Positions 1 to 50,798 of a stretch of 53,331 nucleotides of DNA are shown here, in pieces (positions within the stretch are counted from its first letter, which is position 1; the number at the start of each line of letters is the position of its first letter). This stretch comes from Candidatus Agathobaculum pullicola (GTDB lineage Bacteria; Bacillota; Clostridia; Oscillospirales; Butyricicoccaceae). The DNA is taken from positions 1-53,331 of the forward strand of contig DXEF01000024.1 of assembly GCA_019115085.1 (NCBI GenBank), in the 5' to 3' direction. The notes beneath the pieces were generated by a model, which worked only from the letters and a program-made list of their open reading frames with translations, was not told the DNA's origin and searched no databases. A program made the position numbers and the translations under genes.

Positions 1-320
1 TCGACACAGGTTAGAAAACCCTTTTCAATCAGCGCGGACATATCGCGGTAAAAGCCTTTTGCGTTTGATTTCTCATAAAGGCCATACAGCGCAGCCCATT
101 TGCTTTGGTTCATCGTAAAACAAAGCGGGTCATTGTTTGGCTTTTGCTTTTCTGCATAAAGCTGCGCTTTGCAATACAAATAAAGCCGTTGCTGCTGGGC
201 GGTGAGCGCCCGCCAAGCAACAGAAAGCAGCATGGACATATAAATATTTGCGCTGGTGTCATTGCTTGTGCCTGTCGATTCAAACGGTTTTTTCTGGTAC
301 GGCGTTTTTCGTTTTCTCAT
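1..320 (-). CDS. Partial conserved small protein of a clostridial integrative element
   Basis: The frame opens with ATG at 320 and is still open at the left edge, so only the first 106 residues are visible. It begins with a basic segment (MRKRKTPYQKKPFE) and continues into a helical stretch rich in Trp, Tyr and Lys (for example KWAALYGLYEKSNAKGFY). I recall similar short proteins beside the replication or mobilization genes of Firmicutes integrative elements, but I cannot give a function. It overlaps the upstream gene (stop at 280) by 41 bp, so the two are probably translated from one leftward transcript. A gene is likely; its role is unknown. Confidence 0.55.
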   Translation of the reverse strand, partial: MRKRKTPYQKKPFESTGTSNDTSANIYMSMLLSVAWRALTAQQQRLYLYCKAQLYAEKQKPNNDPLCFTMNQSKWAALYGLYEKSNAKGFYRDMSALIEKGFLTCV

Positions 321-36968: not shown

Positions 36969-37069
36969 TTGACAAAATTAGCCAATCATGTATAATGGTG
37001 TTGGAGGACTGTGTGAAACACTCCATATTTGCCCGTTCCGGTGGTGGTGCACTGGGACGGGCGCTTTTT
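36969..37069 (+). ncRNA. Candidate small RNA in the lysogeny region
   Basis: TTGACA (36969-36974) and TATAAT (36991-36996), 16 bp apart, would start a transcript near 37003. About 65 nt later comes an intrinsic terminator: GCCCGTTCC with GGGACGGGC (37031-37039 and 37054-37062) followed by GCTTTTT. No convincing frame lies between. A second GGTGT/ACACC stem with six T follows at about 37072-37097. It is divergent from ltp. A prophage regulatory RNA is plausible; a leader of the next gene is the alternative. Confidence 0.5.
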
Positions 37070-37125
37070 ATGGTGTCCAATTTGAACACCGATTTTTTAA
37101 TGATATGCAATATATTGATTTACCC

Positions 37126-45753: not shown

Positions 45754-47881
45754 GGTTATCAATACTATCCTCAACCTGCGCGACAACATGTCCGGCGGGC
45801 TGCTCAAGGCCGCGCGCAACGCCAAAAAGGCGGGCGCGGACATCGACGACAGCATGATCTCTGCCACCCGGCAGGTGGTGGCGTTCAAGAACAAGGCGGT
45901 CGACGGCATCAAGAGCTTTGCCAAGACCGCTACGGGCGTCGGCGTCGCGGGCGTCACCGCGCTGACGACGGCTTTCATCGCGCTCGACGGCGTAACCGAG
46001 GAGTACCGGATCAACCAAGGCAAGCTGCTGACGGCCTTTGCCAATACGGCAATCGGCACACAGGGCGCGCGCACGGCGTACTCCGAGCTGTACAAGATAC
46101 TGGGAGACAGCGATACATCGACCGAGGCCGCGCAGGCGCTGTCCACGCTGGCGAGAAGTCAGCAGGACGTGACAAAATGGACGCGCGTTGCCGCTGGTGT
46201 GGTCGGCAAGTTTGGCGACGGCATCAGCATCAATAGCTTGTTTCAGGATATCGGCGAAAGCACGGTCAGCGGTACGGTGACCGGCGCGCTGGCGGACACC
46301 TTGAACTGGCTGAATATCTCCGAGGACGAGTTCAACGAGCGGCTGGAGGCCACCGGCACGACCGCCGAACGCACGACGCTGATTCTGGACACCCTGACAG
46401 CTGCTTACGACGGCTATGCGGATGCGTTTTATCAGAATAACACGCAGCTGGTCAAAAACCGCGCGTACCAGACGCAGGTGACGGCCACGATGGCCAAGCT
46501 GGGCGAAGCCAGCCAAACTGTGAAAAGCGGCATCCTTGAGATGCTCGGTGCGTCGGAAAGCGGCGGATTCCGCGAGGGCTCTGTATTTGCGATTTTGTCT
46601 ACACAGGCCGAGCGCCTTTCGGCTTGGGTTCAGTCGGTAGACTTTTCTTCTTTTGCAGCCAAGGTCGATCAGGGCATTGCGGGTGCGATAGAGACTGTGA
46701 AGGGCATTTTTCAGTGGTTCATGGACAACCGGGAGACTATCACTGCGGTGCTGGTCGGTATCGGGTCTGCATTCGGCGCAATCAAGATCATGCAATTTGT
46801 GTCAGGTGTGGCGAATCTGGTTGTGACCATCAAGCGGTTTGCGTTTACGCTTGCTGGAATTGTGGCCACGAATCCGGTCTTACTGGCTATTGCAGCGGGC
46901 ATTGCGGCCATCGCGGTGGCTGGTGTCCTGATTTATAAGAACTGGGACAAGATCAAGGCAGCTGCGGTCACGCTTTGGGGCGTAGTCAAAGAAAAGTTCT
47001 TTGCAATCAAAAATGCGGTGCTGCAAGCGCTTGCGCCGGTGATCGCGGTCGTTCTGGAGGTTGCCGGGTACATCCGGAGCTTTTTCGTGCGGGCAATCGA
47101 GCATATCCAGCCAGTCATGCGGACGGTGTTCGGTTTTATCCAGAATACGGTCATCCCGATCGGACAGGGTTTGTTCGAGGTCATCAAGAAGGTCGCAGGT
47201 TTTTTTGTTGGCAATTTGGTGGTGGCGTTTCAACTTGCACAGCCAGTAATGGAGATGGTGTTCGGGTTTGTGCGTGATATTGCCGTGCCGGTTTTTGGAA
47301 TTCTTCTCGAGGTCGGCGGTCGTGTGGCGGGCTTCCTTATTGACCAACTTTCCGCAGCGTTTGGCTGGGTGCTGGAAAAGATGGAGCCTGTGTTCAGCTT
47401 TATCCGGGATGCTTTTTTGCCCGGCTTGGGTGATTTTATCGATAAGCTGGGCGAACTGCGGAATTTCCTTGTGGACAAGCTGCTGGGTGCGCTGAACACG
47501 GTTAAGGATGTGTTCAACAAGGTCAAAAGTGCGGTCGGTGGTCTGATCGACAAGGTCAAGGAATTCCTCGGTATGGACACGAGTAAAACGGTCAAGCTTT
47601 CGACCGAATACGTGGCCGGCGACCAGCTCGCTGGCAATGCGCTCGGCACATCTTACTGGCGCGGCGGTCTGACGAGGGTCAACGAGCGCGGCGGCGAGAT
47701 CATGAACCTGCCGAACGGCACGCAGATCATCCCGCACGACATCTCCGCGCGCATGGCGGGCGGGCCGCGCGTGACGGTCAACGTCACAGTCGCGGGCAAC
47801 GTCATCGGCAACGAGCAGTACGCGGACGAGCTGGGCGAGCGGATCGCGGACAAGCTCCTCCGCGCAATTGAAAACATGTAA
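45740..47881 (+). CDS. Tail tape measure protein
   Basis: This is a 713-residue protein with long helical regions, a hydrophobic segment (about 328-400, including FTLAGIVATNPVLLAIAAGI) and several near-repeats in the C-terminal half of the form QPVMRTVFGFIQNTVIPIGQ / QPVMEMVFGFVRDIAVPVFG / EPVFSFIRDAFLPGLG. The C-terminus has the common phage-tail block GGEIMNLPNGTQIIPHDIS. Such length would give a short tail, about 100 nm by the usual 0.15 nm per residue rule. GGCG precedes its ATG; it overlaps the frameshifted chaperone. Confidence 0.9.
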   Translation: MAKSKVINTILNLRDNMSGGLLKAARNAKKAGADIDDSMISATRQVVAFKNKAVDGIKSFAKTATGVGVAGVTALTTAFIALDGVTEEYRINQGKLLTAFANTAIGTQGARTAYSELYKILGDSDTSTEAAQALSTLARSQQDVTKWTRVAAGVVGKFGDGISINSLFQDIGESTVSGTVTGALADTLNWLNISEDEFNERLEATGTTAERTTLILDTLTAAYDGYADAFYQNNTQLVKNRAYQTQVTATMAKLGEASQTVKSGILEMLGASESGGFREGSVFAILSTQAERLSAWVQSVDFSSFAAKVDQGIAGAIETVKGIFQWFMDNRETITAVLVGIGSAFGAIKIMQFVSGVANLVVTIKRFAFTLAGIVATNPVLLAIAAGIAAIAVAGVLIYKNWDKIKAAAVTLWGVVKEKFFAIKNAVLQALAPVIAVVLEVAGYIRSFFVRAIEHIQPVMRTVFGFIQNTVIPIGQGLFEVIKKVAGFFVGNLVVAFQLAQPVMEMVFGFVRDIAVPVFGILLEVGGRVAGFLIDQLSAAFGWVLEKMEPVFSFIRDAFLPGLGDFIDKLGELRNFLVDKLLGALNTVKDVFNKVKSAVGGLIDKVKEFLGMDTSKTVKLSTEYVAGDQLAGNALGTSYWRGGLTRVNERGGEIMNLPNGTQIIPHDISARMAGGPRVTVNVTVAGNVIGNEQYADELGERIADKLLRAIENM

Positions 47882-47884
47882 CAG

Positions 47885-47905
47885 AAAAGCCGCCCCGGAG
47901 GGCGG
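47885..47905 (-). terminator. Leftward terminator of toxin-antitoxin-like module 1
   Basis: On the minus strand CCGCCC-TCCG-GGGCGG is followed by CTTTTC. It lies just behind the rightward promoter, where an antisense RNA from the opposite promoter would end. Confidence 0.65.
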
Positions 47906-47908
47906 AGA

Positions 47909-47938
47909 TAGACAAAGTACGACAGCGTATGCTATAAT
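47909..47938 (+). promoter_or_regulatory. Rightward promoter of module 1
   Basis: TAGACA (47909-47914) and TATAAT (47933-47938) are 18 bp apart. The box pair and the flanking AAAG and GC-TATAAT are almost the same as those of the opposing promoter at 48175-48204. Confidence 0.75.
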
Positions 47939-48015
47939 CAGGGCGGACGCTGTTACATATAGCGGTCAGACCCACCTTTCCCCAGCGCATTTTACCGCGA
48001 GGGGAGGTGGTGCGT

Positions 48016-48090
48016 ATGTGGAAAAAGGCTTTTCAGCTTTTGATGTGTGCGGCCATGGTGCTGTACATTTTCACCATAAAAGCGCGCTGA
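48016..48090 (+). CDS. 24-residue hydrophobic peptide, candidate type I toxin (module 1)
   Basis: ATG at 48016 follows GGGGAGGTGGTGCGT. The peptide has a Lys-Lys start (MWKKAFQ), a hydrophobic core (LLMCAAMVLYIFT) and the ending IKAR. It resembles in size and build the membrane-active toxins of type I systems (Fst, TxpA/BsrG, prophage toxins of Clostridioides), but it matches none I know. The stop codon lies in the stem GCTGACCGCT/AGCGGTCAGC (48086-48118). The partner peptide at 50589 ends in IKAH. Confidence 0.7.
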   Translation: MWKKAFQLLMCAAMVLYIFTIKAR

Positions 48091-48118
48091 CCGCTCGGCT
48101 GGTACCCAAGCGGTCAGC
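48086..48118. promoter_or_regulatory. Stop-codon hairpin of module 1
   Basis: GCTGACCGCT (48086-48095) pairs with AGCGGTCAGC (48109-48118). The first arm contains the peptide stop codon. A third copy, AGCGGTCAG, lies in the 5' leader (47961-47969) and could pair with the same first arm, giving alternative folds. Confidence 0.7.
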
Positions 48119-48174
48119 ATTTTGCTGATTGTATAACGGGTCTGACTGCTGTAACAGCGTCCCTTTGTATGCTT

Positions 48175-48204
48175 ATTATAGCGCGTGCGCCCCGTCTTTG
48201 TCAA
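48175..48204 (-). promoter_or_regulatory. Antisense promoter of module 1
   Basis: On the minus strand TTGACA (plus 48199-48204) and TATAAT (plus 48175-48180) are both perfect, 18 bp apart. This is stronger than the rightward promoter, as expected for an antitoxin RNA. Confidence 0.8.
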
Positions 48205-48228
48205 GTTGGCAGAGGCGGGGCGCTTTTT
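48187..48228 (+). terminator. Rightward terminator of module 1
   Basis: GCGCCCCG (48187-48194) and CGGGGCGC (48216-48223) form the stem, followed by TTTTTG. The antisense promoter -35 lies in the loop. Confidence 0.75.
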
Positions 48229-48249
48229 GTATGCAGGGAGGTGGCAGCA

Positions 48250-48672
48250 ATCGCCTACAAGGTCATATTTTCGGTCAACAACAACGAGGAAGTGTTCACG
48301 CTGCCGCATGTGCCGGTGGACTTCCCGCTGCCGCAGCCCGAGCAGCACAATGAAACCTATGAGGGCCTCAGCTACGACTACCGCCGCATCGGAACGCTGG
48401 GGCTGCGGTCGCTCAGTTGGTCGAGCTTTTTCCCGGTCGGGAAGCGTTACAGCTGGATGCCCGCCGAGGCGCTTGAGGACGGCTGGTCATACGTCAGCTT
48501 TTTCGAGCGCTGGCGTGACCGCAAGGTGCCGTTTCGCGTGATTGTGCTGGACAGCGGCGGCGTGTGCCGGCTCAATATGCCGTGCACAGTGGACACGTTT
48601 GAGCCGTCTGTGCGGCGAAACGGCGATATTGCTTATACAATTTCCATCACGGAATACCGCTTTGTGGATTAA
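48250..48672 (+). CDS. Baseplate/tail protein following the tape measure
   Basis: This is a 140-residue protein beginning IAYKVIFSVNNNEEVFTLPH and including DFPLPQPEQHNETYEGLSYD and SITEYRFV at the end; I recognise it as a type that follows the tape measure in clostridial myoviruses, in the place of XkdP. The best-placed start is ATC at 48250, eight bases after GGGAGG; GTG at 48241 directly abuts the SD. The non-ATG start may be a scar of the upstream module. Structural role inferred from position. Confidence 0.78.
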   Translation: MAYKVIFSVNNNEEVFTLPHVPVDFPLPQPEQHNETYEGLSYDYRRIGTLGLRSLSWSSFFPVGKRYSWMPAEALEDGWSYVSFFERWRDRKVPFRVIVLDSGGVCRLNMPCTVDTFEPSVRRNGDIAYTISITEYRFVD

Positions 48673-48684
48673 GGAGGTGCGCGG

Positions 48685-50190
48685 GTGGCTTACGGATATG
48701 TGGACGAGCACCGGCTGTACCTTGAGCGCAGCGGCGAGGCCCGCGACATCACGGCCTTTGTCGGTAACCTGACCGCGACGGACGACATCACCGCGCTGTC
48801 GGTCGAGCTGACCGGCACGCAGTTCGTCAGCCAATGGGACAAGTACGTCCCCAAGCTCGCACTCGCGCCGGGCGACAAGCTGCGCCTGCGCAATGAAGCG
48901 GCGCAGCAGGATGTGTTCGTCGGGCAGCTGGTGACCGTCGGGCTGGACGGTGCAATCACGGCTTACGACCGCGGTTGGTATCTCGGTCGCAGCGGCATCA
49001 TTTTGCAGTGCAGCGGCATGGCGGCGGATGAGGCTATCCGCGCGGCGTGCAGCAAGGCGGGCGTGGGTGTCAAAAGCGTCACCAGTCTGCCGACCAAAAT
49101 CAGCGAGGTCTGGCTGGGCGACGCGGTGAGCGACATCATCGCGGACATTCTGGAGCGGTGCAGCGCGGAGACGGGCAAAGAGTATCAGGCGCGCATGTCG
49201 CCGGAGGGGCTGGTCGTGCACGAGCTGCCGACCGCCGCCATCAAGGCGTTTCACCGTCCCGCGTGGAATCTCGCGCCCTTTGATATCACATGGGCGCTGG
49301 GGCAGGTGTCGGGCGAGGACAGCATCGCGGAGCTGTACAACGCGGTGGTGCTCGCCGCCGAGGACAGCGGCAAGGTGTACATCGGCGCGCAGGCATCAAA
49401 TGCGGCATCAGTCGAGAAATACGGCTTTTTGCAGTACATCGAGCGCGTCAGCGAGAACCCCGGCACGGCGCAGCTCGGCCAGATGGTGCGCACGCTCCTT
49501 GCGCAGAAAGACCGCATCGGCCGTACGCGCACCATCAGCGAGATTTGGGGCTGCGACGAGGTGACAAGCGGCACGGTGCTGAATTTCAATTCCCCGGCGT
49601 TTGGCATCGAGGGGCGCAACCGCGTCACGCGCGTTGTCCACCACTACGGCGGTGCAGGGCACACGATGGAGCTGGAAATCACCGCTCTCGACGAGCCGCG
49701 CGCGGCGGGCGGCACGGATGCGGTGTCCGTCTGGGGCTTGCCCGACACGATTGGTGCAGGCTCGTCCGGTACGGGCGGGAACGGCAGCGCGTCCAGCTTT
49801 GTGGCGGTCGCGCGCAGCCAGGTCGGCTACAAGGAAAGCTCCGGCAACATCAACAAGTACGGTGCGTGGGCGGGACATAACGGCGTGGCGTGGTGCGTGT
49901 ACTTCGTTTGCTGGTGTGCCGACCAGTCGGGCGCTCCCATCCCGACTGGGTACGGCTATGTTGGCGACATGTCGGACTATTTCAAGGCGCGCGGGCAGTA
50001 CAAGACGGTGGCAAGCGGCTACATCCCCAAGGCGGGCGACCTGATGATACAAGGTACGCGGCACATCGGCATCGTGACCGGCGCGACGCGGGCGAGCGTG
50101 CAGACCATCGAGGGCAACTGCTCAGACAGCGTGCGCGCCATGACGCGGTACTATTCGGAAATCACAGGGTTTTGCACACCTTGGGGATAA
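48685..50190 (+). CDS. Baseplate hub protein (XkdQ-like) fused to a CHAP hydrolase domain
   Basis: This is a 501-residue protein. Residues about 1-345 resemble XkdQ/gpD-type hub proteins (DITAFVGNLTATDDITALSV, then RNRVTRVVHHYGGAGHTMEL). After a Gly/Ser linker (GAGSSGTGGNGSASS, about 360-374) comes a CHAP-like cysteine amidase/peptidase domain with Cys in GVAWCVYFVCWCADQSG, His in GTRHIGIVTGA and the TIEGNCSDSVRAM segment. The fusion would put a peptidoglycan hydrolase at the tail tip. GTG start at 48685 after AAGGAGGTGCGCGG. Confidence 0.85.
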   Translation: MAYGYVDEHRLYLERSGEARDITAFVGNLTATDDITALSVELTGTQFVSQWDKYVPKLALAPGDKLRLRNEAAQQDVFVGQLVTVGLDGAITAYDRGWYLGRSGIILQCSGMAADEAIRAACSKAGVGVKSVTSLPTKISEVWLGDAVSDIIADILERCSAETGKEYQARMSPEGLVVHELPTAAIKAFHRPAWNLAPFDITWALGQVSGEDSIAELYNAVVLAAEDSGKVYIGAQASNAASVEKYGFLQYIERVSENPGTAQLGQMVRTLLAQKDRIGRTRTISEIWGCDEVTSGTVLNFNSPAFGIEGRNRVTRVVHHYGGAGHTMELEITALDEPRAAGGTDAVSVWGLPDTIGAGSSGTGGNGSASSFVAVARSQVGYKESSGNINKYGAWAGHNGVAWCVYFVCWCADQSGAPIPTGYGYVGDMSDYFKARGQYKTVASGYIPKAGDLMIQGTRHIGIVTGATRASVQTIEGNCSDSVRAMTRYYSEITGFCTPWG

Positions 50191-50473: not shown

Positions 50474-50494
50474 AAAAGCCGCCCCGGAGGGCGG
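50474..50494 (-). terminator. Leftward terminator of toxin-antitoxin-like module 2
   Basis: Identical stem to module 1 (CCGCCC-TCCG-GGGCGG on the minus strand, then CTTTTG). Confidence 0.65.
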
Positions 50495-50499
50495 CAGCG

Positions 50500-50529
50500 T
50501 AGACAAAGACTGACAGCGTATGCTATAAT
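50500..50529 (+). promoter_or_regulatory. Rightward promoter of module 2
   Basis: TAGACA (50500-50505) and TATAAT (50524-50529), 18 bp apart, with the same GACAGCGTATGC spacer end as module 1. Confidence 0.75.
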
Positions 50530-50588
50530 CAGGGCGGACGCTGTTACATATGGCGGTCAGGCACTCCCCATAAAGGGGGTGATGCTTT

Positions 50589-50660
50589 ATGAGACGATTT
50601 GTAAAAATCGTAATATGGGCACTTCTGTTGCTACATATTTTGCTTATAAAAGCGCACTGA
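50589..50660 (+). CDS. 23-residue hydrophobic peptide, candidate type I toxin (module 2)
   Basis: ATG at 50589 follows AAGGGGGTGATGCTTT. The peptide starts MRRFVK, has the hydrophobic core IVIWALLLLHILL and ends IKAH. Compared with module 1 the core is diverged, but the basic start, length and I-K-A-basic ending are kept. The stop codon again lies in the first arm of a hairpin (CACTGACCG with CGGTCAGTG, 50655-50689). An overlapping frame starting at ATG 50582 is not hydrophobic and is ignored. Confidence 0.7.
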   Translation: MRRFVKIVIWALLLLHILLIKAH

Positions 50661-50700
50661 CCGCTCGGCTGGCCCCCGAACGGTCAGTGACTTAGTCACT
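50655..50700. promoter_or_regulatory. Stop-codon hairpin of module 2
   Basis: CACTGACCG (50655-50663) pairs with CGGTCAGTG (50681-50689). An extra overlapping stem AGTGAC-TTA-GTCACT (50686-50700), not present in module 1, follows. Confidence 0.65.
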
Positions 50701-50748
50701 TTGCTGTTTTAAGGTCTGACTGCTGTAACAGCGTCCCTTTGTATAGAT

Positions 50749-50776
50749 ATTATAGCATACGCCCCGTCTTTGTCAA
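50749..50776 (-). promoter_or_regulatory. Antisense promoter of module 2
   Basis: On the minus strand perfect TTGACA (plus 50771-50776) and TATAAT (plus 50749-50754), spacer 16 bp against 18 in module 1. Confidence 0.75.
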
Positions 50777-50798
50777 GTTGGCAGAGACGGGGCGTTTT
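50760..50798 (+). terminator. Rightward terminator of module 2
   Basis: CGCCCCGTCT (50760-50769) and AGACGGGGCG (50785-50794) form a 10-bp stem followed by TTTT; the antisense -35 lies in the loop. Confidence 0.75.

Follow-up and report, generated by a model that had tools for sequence, protein, structure and literature searches.

A putative type I toxin-antitoxin-like family in Clostridia that combines a mirror-symmetric RNA chassis with apparently exchangeable peptide frames

Introduction

Type I toxin-antitoxin systems are hard to find because their toxins are tiny and diverge quickly. In TxpA and BsrG, the antisense RNA overlaps the 3′ end of the toxin mRNA, and yonT/SR6 is reported to have its antisense RNA there as well. 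The cassette described here resembles TxpA/RatA, BsrG/SR4 and yonT/SR6 in this respect, as its predicted antisense RNA lies over the 3′ end of the putative toxin mRNA. It also resembles par/Fst, the RNA I/RNA II system of pAD1, as portrayed in the excerpt of PMC7472228 that we draw on: both have convergent promoters that oppose a peptide mRNA to a short antisense RNA (a predicted one in the cassette), both have a hairpin that hides the Shine-Dalgarno (SD) sequence together with a helix involving the 5′-end, and both are spread over mobile elements and chromosomes (PMC7472228).

The cassette occupies about 340 nt in a prophage of a gut bacterium, within the window, by which we mean the whole stretch of 53,331 nucleotides that was analysed. 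We consider it likely to be a type I toxin-antitoxin-like module. This reading was proposed in a first-pass annotation, and comparison of sequences upholds it, as the frame, both promoters and the RNA stems are conserved across copies. From the anatomy of the cassette, its conservation and covariation, the asymmetry of its promoters and its modularity, all of them read from sequence, we conclude that it appears to represent a widespread type I toxin-antitoxin-like family in which a mirror-symmetric RNA chassis carries exchangeable toxin frames.

Anatomy of the cassette

The features of the cassette are as follows.

47885-48228: the cassette, ~340 nt
47885..47905, − strand: putative outer terminator of the leftward RNA, a left-end hairpin with an A-tract on the + strand (a T-run on the − strand); terminator-like site at 47905-47890
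47909..47938, + strand: sense promoter TAGACA-18-TATAAT with TG before the −10 element (promoter scan)
47945..47973, + strand: mRNA leader, predicted 5′ arm of a panhandle (RNAalifold, pair counts, single-sequence fold)
47974..48011, + strand: hairpin holding the SD sequence (folding, RNAalifold, helix pair counts)
48001-48010, + strand: SD sequence GGGGAGGTGG (sequence)
48016..48090, + strand: 24-aa open reading frame (ORF) MWKKAFQLLMCAAMVLYIFTIKAR, predicted single membrane helix
48024..48041, + strand: small hairpin just within the ORF, with compensatory changes (RNAalifold, pair counts)
48085..48119: stop-codon hairpin TGACCGC..GCGGTCA, terminator-like on the − strand
After the stop hairpin, − strand: possible inner terminator of the leftward RNA, GCGCTTTTAT
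48138..48162, + strand: panhandle 3′ arm; read on the − strand, this stretch would be the antisense RNA's 5′ leader
48078..48168, − strand: predicted short antisense RNA (5′ end near 48168, 3′ end near 48078), placed from the promoter and terminator-like site
48175..48204, − strand: antisense promoter TTGACA-18-TATAAT, perfect consensus
48187..48228, + strand: putative mRNA terminator (terminator-like site at 48187-48223, 17 pairs and a T-run), overlapping the antisense promoter

All parts that the first-pass annotation named are present: the 24-aa frame with its strong SD sequence lies between two convergent promoters, and terminator-like sites stand at both cassette ends, at 48187-48223 (+) and 47905-47890 (−). 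Three features taken up below went unnoticed in that annotation: a second copy, the inverted-repeat ends, and pairing of the mRNA leader with the 3′-UTR. Across the region 46000-50000, the scans returned 4 promoter-like sites where 0.9 are expected and 15 terminator-like sites where 4.3 are expected.

The two arms of the cassette are inverted repeats over ~90-95 nt that hold the opposite RNA's terminator, the promoter and the leader. Because the ends are inverted copies, the mRNA and the antisense RNA would begin with a nearly identical leader (GGACGCTGTTACA..GTCAGACC is common to both), and the 3′-UTR of the mRNA has two complementary partners, the mRNA's own leader and the antisense RNA. In addition, a short direct repeat, GCGGTCAG, is found in the leader and in the stop hairpin, and most subtype A and B copies (subtypes are defined below) carry AAAAGCCGCCC..GGGCGG or near variants at the left-end hairpin.

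The leftward RNA had been described as fully antisense to the peptide mRNA; this depends on where that RNA stops. If it ended at the inner terminator-like site (48119-48085), it would be ~90 nt long and reach no further than the 3′-UTR and the 3′ end of the ORF. The RNA ends are uncertain, since in 5 of 12 subtype B copies the profile match ends before the right-end terminator and subtype C copies preserve the left-end hairpin poorly.

A second copy and the genomic setting

A second cassette copy, with 74% identity to the first and a different peptide, lies 2.6 kb downstream.

50474..50798, + strand: second cassette copy, subtype B (sequence comparison)
50500..50529, + strand: sense promoter TAGACA-18-TATAAT
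50589..50660, + strand: ORF MRRFVKIVIWALLLLHILLIKAH
50749..50776, − strand: antisense promoter TTGACA-16-TATAAT

Perfect promoters of the form TTGACA-16..18-TATAAT occur at five sites in the 53-kb window, as compared to none in 100 shuffles. Two of the five stand just upstream of two tRNA genes, one is at 36969, and the remaining two are the antisense promoters of the cassettes; the antisense promoter is of the same quality as those at the window's tRNA genes. The orphan promoter (TTGACA-16-TATAAT, window 36969-37075, + strand) is followed within ~75 nt by a GC-rich hairpin and then a T-run, as judged by eye, and lies near a small ORF and an apparent helix-turn-helix repressor gene, making it a candidate prophage small RNA in its own right.

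The neighbours of the cassettes are those of a contractile-tail prophage, with Pfam matches to sheath, YqbQ/CHAP, sheath initiator, baseplate J and Mu Gp48. No Pfam family matches the gene that directly precedes the cassette; the homologue of this gene next to a copy in a relative is matched by PHROG tape measure families.

Relatives fall into four subtypes

Within the host family, 24 of 87 genomes (the window's own included) match at E≤0.01, with up to 7 matched pieces per genome, the weakest of them just 20-50 nt long. A leader pattern retrieved 8 IMG/VR stretches, and a stop-hairpin pattern retrieved 7 in IMG/VR, 3 of these new, together with 31 from named genomes, among them Agathobaculum, Oscillibacter, Flavonifractor, other Oscillospiraceae and a single Acutalibacter. 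A profile search over 72 loci then gave 138 matches, many of which reflect the inverted arms, one aligning to its counterpart on the reverse strand; 55 distinct elements have a frame and a profile score ≥100. Contigs of metagenome-assembled genomes may miss copies, INPHARED phages gave no blastn match, and tblastn with the subtype C peptide gave nothing better than E 0.4 (Streptomyces phages, with FtsK-like genes among the matches listed).

About 50 distinct related frames are found in phages and chromosomes, encoding hydrophobic peptides mostly 23-28 aa in length. Most of the peptides fall into four subtypes, exemplified by MWKKAFQLLMCAAMVLYIFTIKAR (A), MRRFVKIVIWALLLLHILLIKAH (B), MWRKRLYAVLRFLVCLAFWAYILTIKAC (C) and MGHRGKQFLRLCVCLAGLAYILTIKAC (D). 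The Acutalibacter locus, L043, has a profile match in which no clear peptide was found, and the ORF listed for locus L016 is an artefact of a truncated copy. For loci fetched by the stop-hairpin pattern, conservation of that stretch is partly built in; the tests of coding, panhandle pairing and the presence of an ORF at the hairpin were chosen to avoid such retrieval bias.

The peptide frame is conserved as protein

The ~50 ORFs keep both frame and stop and begin with ATG, GTG or TTG. Pooled pairwise pN/pS is 0.445 in subtype A (n=15), 0.228 in B (n=10), 0.40 in C (n=13) and 0.39 in D (n=6), values that ignore the tree and in which the synonymous sites are also constrained by RNA structure. 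Conservation of the reading frame among homologous copies, on which the first-pass annotation had staked its reading, thus holds in the four subtypes at pN/pS 0.23-0.45, and the peptides appear to be under purifying selection. They are hydrophobic, with K/R near the N-terminal end. An SD-led ORF on the antisense strand was considered as a second conserved frame and rejected: any such frame is present in 15 of 70 entries, and a single locus, fetched many times, accounts for 8 of the 14 listed.

Neither Pfam nor NCBIfam nor PHROGs matched any of three representative peptides, of which two come from the window. Searching the window with Rfam 15 returned two tRNAs only at gathering score, and in the cassette region at E≤10 three matches at chance level; 20 divergent loci likewise had no Rfam match. 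Because no family library or Rfam entry names the window's peptides or RNA, the assignment of function rests on architecture.

Covariation supports a panhandle and a sequestered SD

To define the RNA fold, RNAalifold was run on subtypes A and B separately with no structure given. In both, it returned a closing panhandle between leader and 3′-UTR, the SD hairpin, the hairpin just within the frame, and a hairpin with the stop codon in its 5′ arm. The proportion of cells paired is 97.9% in A and 98.7% in B, and falls to 34.0-55.2% and 31.7-50.3%, respectively, when the helices are slid by 1-3 columns, a comparison that favours the unslid helices as they were derived from the same alignments as the pair counts. 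Pairs changed on both sides number 12 in A and 10 in B, as compared to shuffle means of 4.9 and 3.7, and 0 of 500 shuffles reach these values. One of the five pair measures, further standard pair types, is not above shuffles (A 121/500, B 355/500). The mRNAs of the window have single-sequence fold z-scores of −10.2 and −9.2, and folds computed for 28 of the 55 elements likewise point to the SD hairpin. By prediction and covariation, close relatives have a structured mRNA in which the SD sequence is sequestered.

The antisense strand may also leave its mark on the peptide. Specifically, GCGCTTTTAT, the possible inner terminator, is complementary to the codons that specify a nearly invariant Ile-Lys-Ala at the end of the peptide. 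Among 26 frames, many of them close relatives that are not independent and with the L016 artefact included, the Ile codon at this end is ATA in 23 of 23 cases (19 of 54 elsewhere in the frames) and the Ala codon is GCG in 21 of 24 (14 of 52 elsewhere). This count covers loci L001-L038 only; later loci were fetched with a pattern holding those codons. The codon pattern fits selection for the U-run of an inner terminator of the antisense RNA, and it raises the possibility that the odd peptide end is partly dictated by the RNA on the opposite strand. The T-run that follows the central hairpin on the + strand is not conserved.

The antisense promoter usually matches the consensus better

In type I systems a stable toxin mRNA is held in check by a labile but strongly made antitoxin, and a corresponding asymmetry between the two promoters is expected. 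Scoring was possible for 53 of the 55 elements. In 45 of these the antisense promoter departs less from consensus than its sense counterpart, in 6 the two are equal, and in 2 it departs more. In intact copies, a perfect 12/12 match to consensus is found for 42 of 45 antisense promoters and for 7 of 45 sense promoters; this count leaves out 10 of the 55 elements, namely L060, L058, L069, L050, L016, L057 and L066, which are cut or lack an end, and three L020 units. The place at which the sense promoter is weakened tends to differ between subtypes: many copies of A and B have TAGACA, many of C have TATGAT, and several of D have TAGAAT. We read this asymmetry as probable selection for the ratio of antisense to sense RNA.

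One RNA chassis carries unrelated peptides

A covariance model, R1, was built from 24 sequences and spans just the 3′ half, from the last codons through the stop hairpin and 3′-UTR to the antisense promoter. In the covariance search for further copies in Clostridia that the first-pass annotation had proposed, R1 matches, at E≤0.001, 77 of the 394 genomes searched from the order, and these represent 43 of 168 genera. Across the class, 23 of 391 genomes match at E≤1e-4, in 14 of 223 genera, and 4 of these 23 belong to the window's order, including genome G000. The E-values of R1 are rough, 8 candidates were scored per genome, and conservation of the antisense promoter among fetched matches is partly built in by its inclusion in the model.

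The presence of a peptide frame served as a check independent of what R1 contains. A hydrophobic, SD-led frame of 18-45 aa that ends in the hairpin is present at 50 of the 58 fetched matches, as compared to 12 of 2389 random positions (0.5%); 8 of the 58 are without such an ORF. Setting aside nine loci that are R1's own or near-identical to them leaves 41 of 49 with an ORF at the hairpin. In 47 units with distinct peptides, pairing between leader and 3′-UTR has a mean of −45.5 kcal/mol within the unit as compared to −32.0 with the partners from other loci, and the unit's own pairing is within the best 5% in 35 of the 47. Pairing of the SD sequence is weaker in this wide set, with a mean of 0.70 and a value ≥0.8 in 14 of 47 leaders.

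Very different peptides are found on the one chassis, for example MVTYSELFQLLMFLVAFAGLILQLSKRK, MEYVYIIIFMIVFITLIESIKK and MRITLHIGAFTVTIIVKRRNRHPGR. Locus L113 (G052:C33, 400-2000, − strand) consists of four tandem units whose RNA frames are near-identical and which encode two unrelated peptide classes (TYSEL and RITLHIG). Between units 2 and 3 of this array, the leaders are 94% identical, the 3′ parts 77% and the frames only 51% when a global alignment is imposed; the two peptides are not visibly related. Two further arrays were observed. In L115 (G227:C1, 900-2100), two of three tandem units share the same peptide and are near-identical over their length, which suggests a recent duplication. 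L130 (G585:C1, ~2361779-2364899) is an array of at least 5 units with MEYVYIIIFMIVFITLIESIKK-like peptides, in a single-contig genome from another family of the class.

The TYSEL class was compared with known small membrane peptides. For one peptide of the class, no match was found in phages or plasmids. The class aligns weakly to NCBIfam PepG1 at E 0.0079 (15.8 bits, cut-off 70), to a PHROG holin at E 0.0028, and to the 31-residue PDB chain 7ns1_A, presumably a SprG-kind peptide, at 0.067. At another R1 match, in genome G178, Hol_Tox aligns over its full length at 0.067. The cut-off of Hol_Tox (PF16935) was reached in 0 of 10 genomes, with no match in the genome of the TYSEL array, and at a lax threshold the model also rings in 8 of 14 control genomes. 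A resemblance of the TYSEL class to known type I toxins or holin-like peptides is suggestive at most.

The cassette is present or absent at syntenic sites

Two insertion sites could be compared among relatives. Site 1 follows the tape measure gene and precedes a gene that was found in ten genomes of the genus. The site is occupied in four of them (G000, G006, G017 and G020) and empty in another four, where an unrelated short hairpin spacer stands instead (G007, G014, G019 and G024); in G011 the contig starts inside the gene. In G001 the same slot (L081, ~700-1540, − strand) holds a HicA/HicB pair (Pfam 6.4e-9 and 1e-11), oriented opposite to the neighbouring genes' strand. This slot between tape measure and baseplate genes appears to host two kinds of toxin-antitoxin-like module among relatives.

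Site 2 was seen in eleven places, with a subtype B cassette in four, B and A in tandem in G001, and nothing in five. In G011 (L092, G011:C86), just upstream of the sheath-initiator gene, an outer hairpin, a −35-like stretch and a T-run are all that is present, an apparent deletion scar of a cassette. No target-site duplication was seen by eye at sites 1 and 2 when occupied and empty versions were compared; this negative carries modest weight because the flanks have diverged.

The nearest genes of other copies, from a survey in which 77 hand-picked ORFs of 102 listed flank ORFs were scanned, encode tail, endolysin and holin proteins as well as chromosomal M29 peptidase, SAM synthetase, UvrC and FakA. 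The first-pass annotation had called the cassette a self-contained phage moron. Its presence and absence in syntenic prophages at two sites bears out that it is self-contained and dispensable; it is not a phage moron only, since chromosomal genes are the nearest neighbours of some copies, and it is one member of a large family.

A proposed model for regulation

The following scheme is our inference as to the two transcripts (how they end and how stable they are), the action of RNase III, toxicity and the biological role. The rightward RNA would fold very stably and serve as mRNA for a membrane peptide of 24 aa, and the full-length form is expected to be poorly translated because the leader pairs with the 3′-UTR in a panhandle and the SD sequence lies in a hairpin. 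The leftward RNA, complementary to the stop hairpin and the 3′-UTR of this mRNA, would begin with nearly the same leader. It may therefore be thought of as a leader decoy that competes with the mRNA's own leader for the 3′-UTR, and the resulting duplex between antisense RNA and mRNA would lead RNase III to destroy the mRNA. If the cassette or its transcription were lost, the labile antisense RNA would vanish first; the mRNA would then be opened or trimmed, and the peptide could enter and damage the membrane. The outcome might be stabilization of the prophage, or a role in stress or phage defence.

A bolder version of this scheme, which we hold tentatively and at somewhat less than even chances, treats the RNA as a ‘socket’. 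One palindrome-like chassis across Clostridia would take up unrelated toxin frames by recombination, with the antisense RNA acting as a decoy leader that invades the panhandle by strand exchange. Regulation would then be independent of the peptide sequence, and so new toxins could be plugged in.

Several other explanations must be weighed against a toxin-antitoxin-like module. The peptide could be a regulated small membrane peptide rather than an addiction toxin, serving in lysis timing, as a holin-like protein or in superinfection exclusion, and silenced until late transcription overruns the antisense RNA. In favour of this, the cassette of this prophage lies within a late operon of tail genes (sheath, YqbQ/CHAP, sheath initiator, baseplate J), and one peptide class on the chassis has a weak PHROG ‘holin’ match (E 0.0028). 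We nevertheless consider it unlikely, as some copies adjoin chromosomal genes (M29 peptidase, SAM synthetase, UvrC, FakA), the cassette is dispensable in syntenic prophages, and tandem arrays carry different peptides. It is very unlikely that the RNA pair is itself the functional product, with the peptide frame only tuning RNA stability: RNA structure is indeed kept while the peptide is exchanged, yet what replaces it at 50 of 58 matches is another hydrophobic SD-led ORF, and the amino acids show the signature of purifying selection.

Mobile DNA is another candidate explanation. In a MITE-like repeat, terminal inverted repeats would merely happen to hold promoters and the ORF would be incidental; inverted arms of ~90-95 nt, dispersed and tandem copies, and presence or absence at syntenic sites are all as expected of such an element. 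Against it, no target-site duplication was seen by eye at the compared sites, the ORF appears to be under purifying selection and is present in 50 of 58 model matches, and the inner stems covary, making this a highly improbable account. Finally, terminator-like hairpins at both ends might suggest that the cassette insulates or terminates transcription in the late operon and that antisense transcription is a by-product. This would leave the ORF, the SD hairpin, the panhandle and two consensus-type promoters unexplained, and four empty sites hold just a short hairpin spacer; we give it almost no credence.

If the type I toxin-antitoxin-like reading is true, many gut Clostridia hold unannotated modules of this kind, several per genome and often in tandem, with a bearing on the stability of gut prophages and on phage defence. 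The conserved RNA frame finds candidates where the peptide does not, and peptide exchange on one chassis would make it possible to study directly how RNA control is gained over new toxins.

Comparison with known systems

No description of the cassette family appeared among the papers listed in the literature searches. Despite the similarities to par/Fst outlined above, several features set the cassette apart. A PXXXG-type motif is found in 0 of 44 listed peptides (one of which is a truncated-copy artefact), its antisense promoter overlaps the mRNA terminator, and its main repeats are inverted, whereas par, in the excerpt of PMC7472228, has the direct repeats DRa/DRb. Neither direct repeats of the DRa/DRb kind crossed by both RNAs nor a bidirectional terminator, by which Fst/Ldr (par) systems are recognized, were found in the cassette. 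The peptides of TxpA/RatA, BsrG/SR4, yonT/SR6, Hol-Tox and SprG/PepG1 differ from those of the window in that the latter match no library.

With hok/Sok and aapA/IsoA, the cassette would share the use of 5′-3′ pairing and local hairpins to keep a toxin mRNA inert, as summarized in the excerpted PMC6733600. Both are set apart by description: the cassette's antisense RNA is predicted to begin with the mRNA's own leader, and such a mirror is absent from the part of the description in PMC6733600 that we draw on. By the tests run, the cassette appears to be a member of none of par/Fst, TxpA/RatA, hok or aapA. The modules of Clostridioides difficile, such as CD0956.2-RCd10, are like it, as it is predicted to work, in having a convergent overlapping pair, and also in a prophage location and several copies per genome, as portrayed in the excerpt of PMC6563280. 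Compared by that same partial description, their toxins are 34-59 aa in length with charged C-terminal ends (PMC6563280), whereas the peptides encoded by the cassettes are mostly 23-28 aa.
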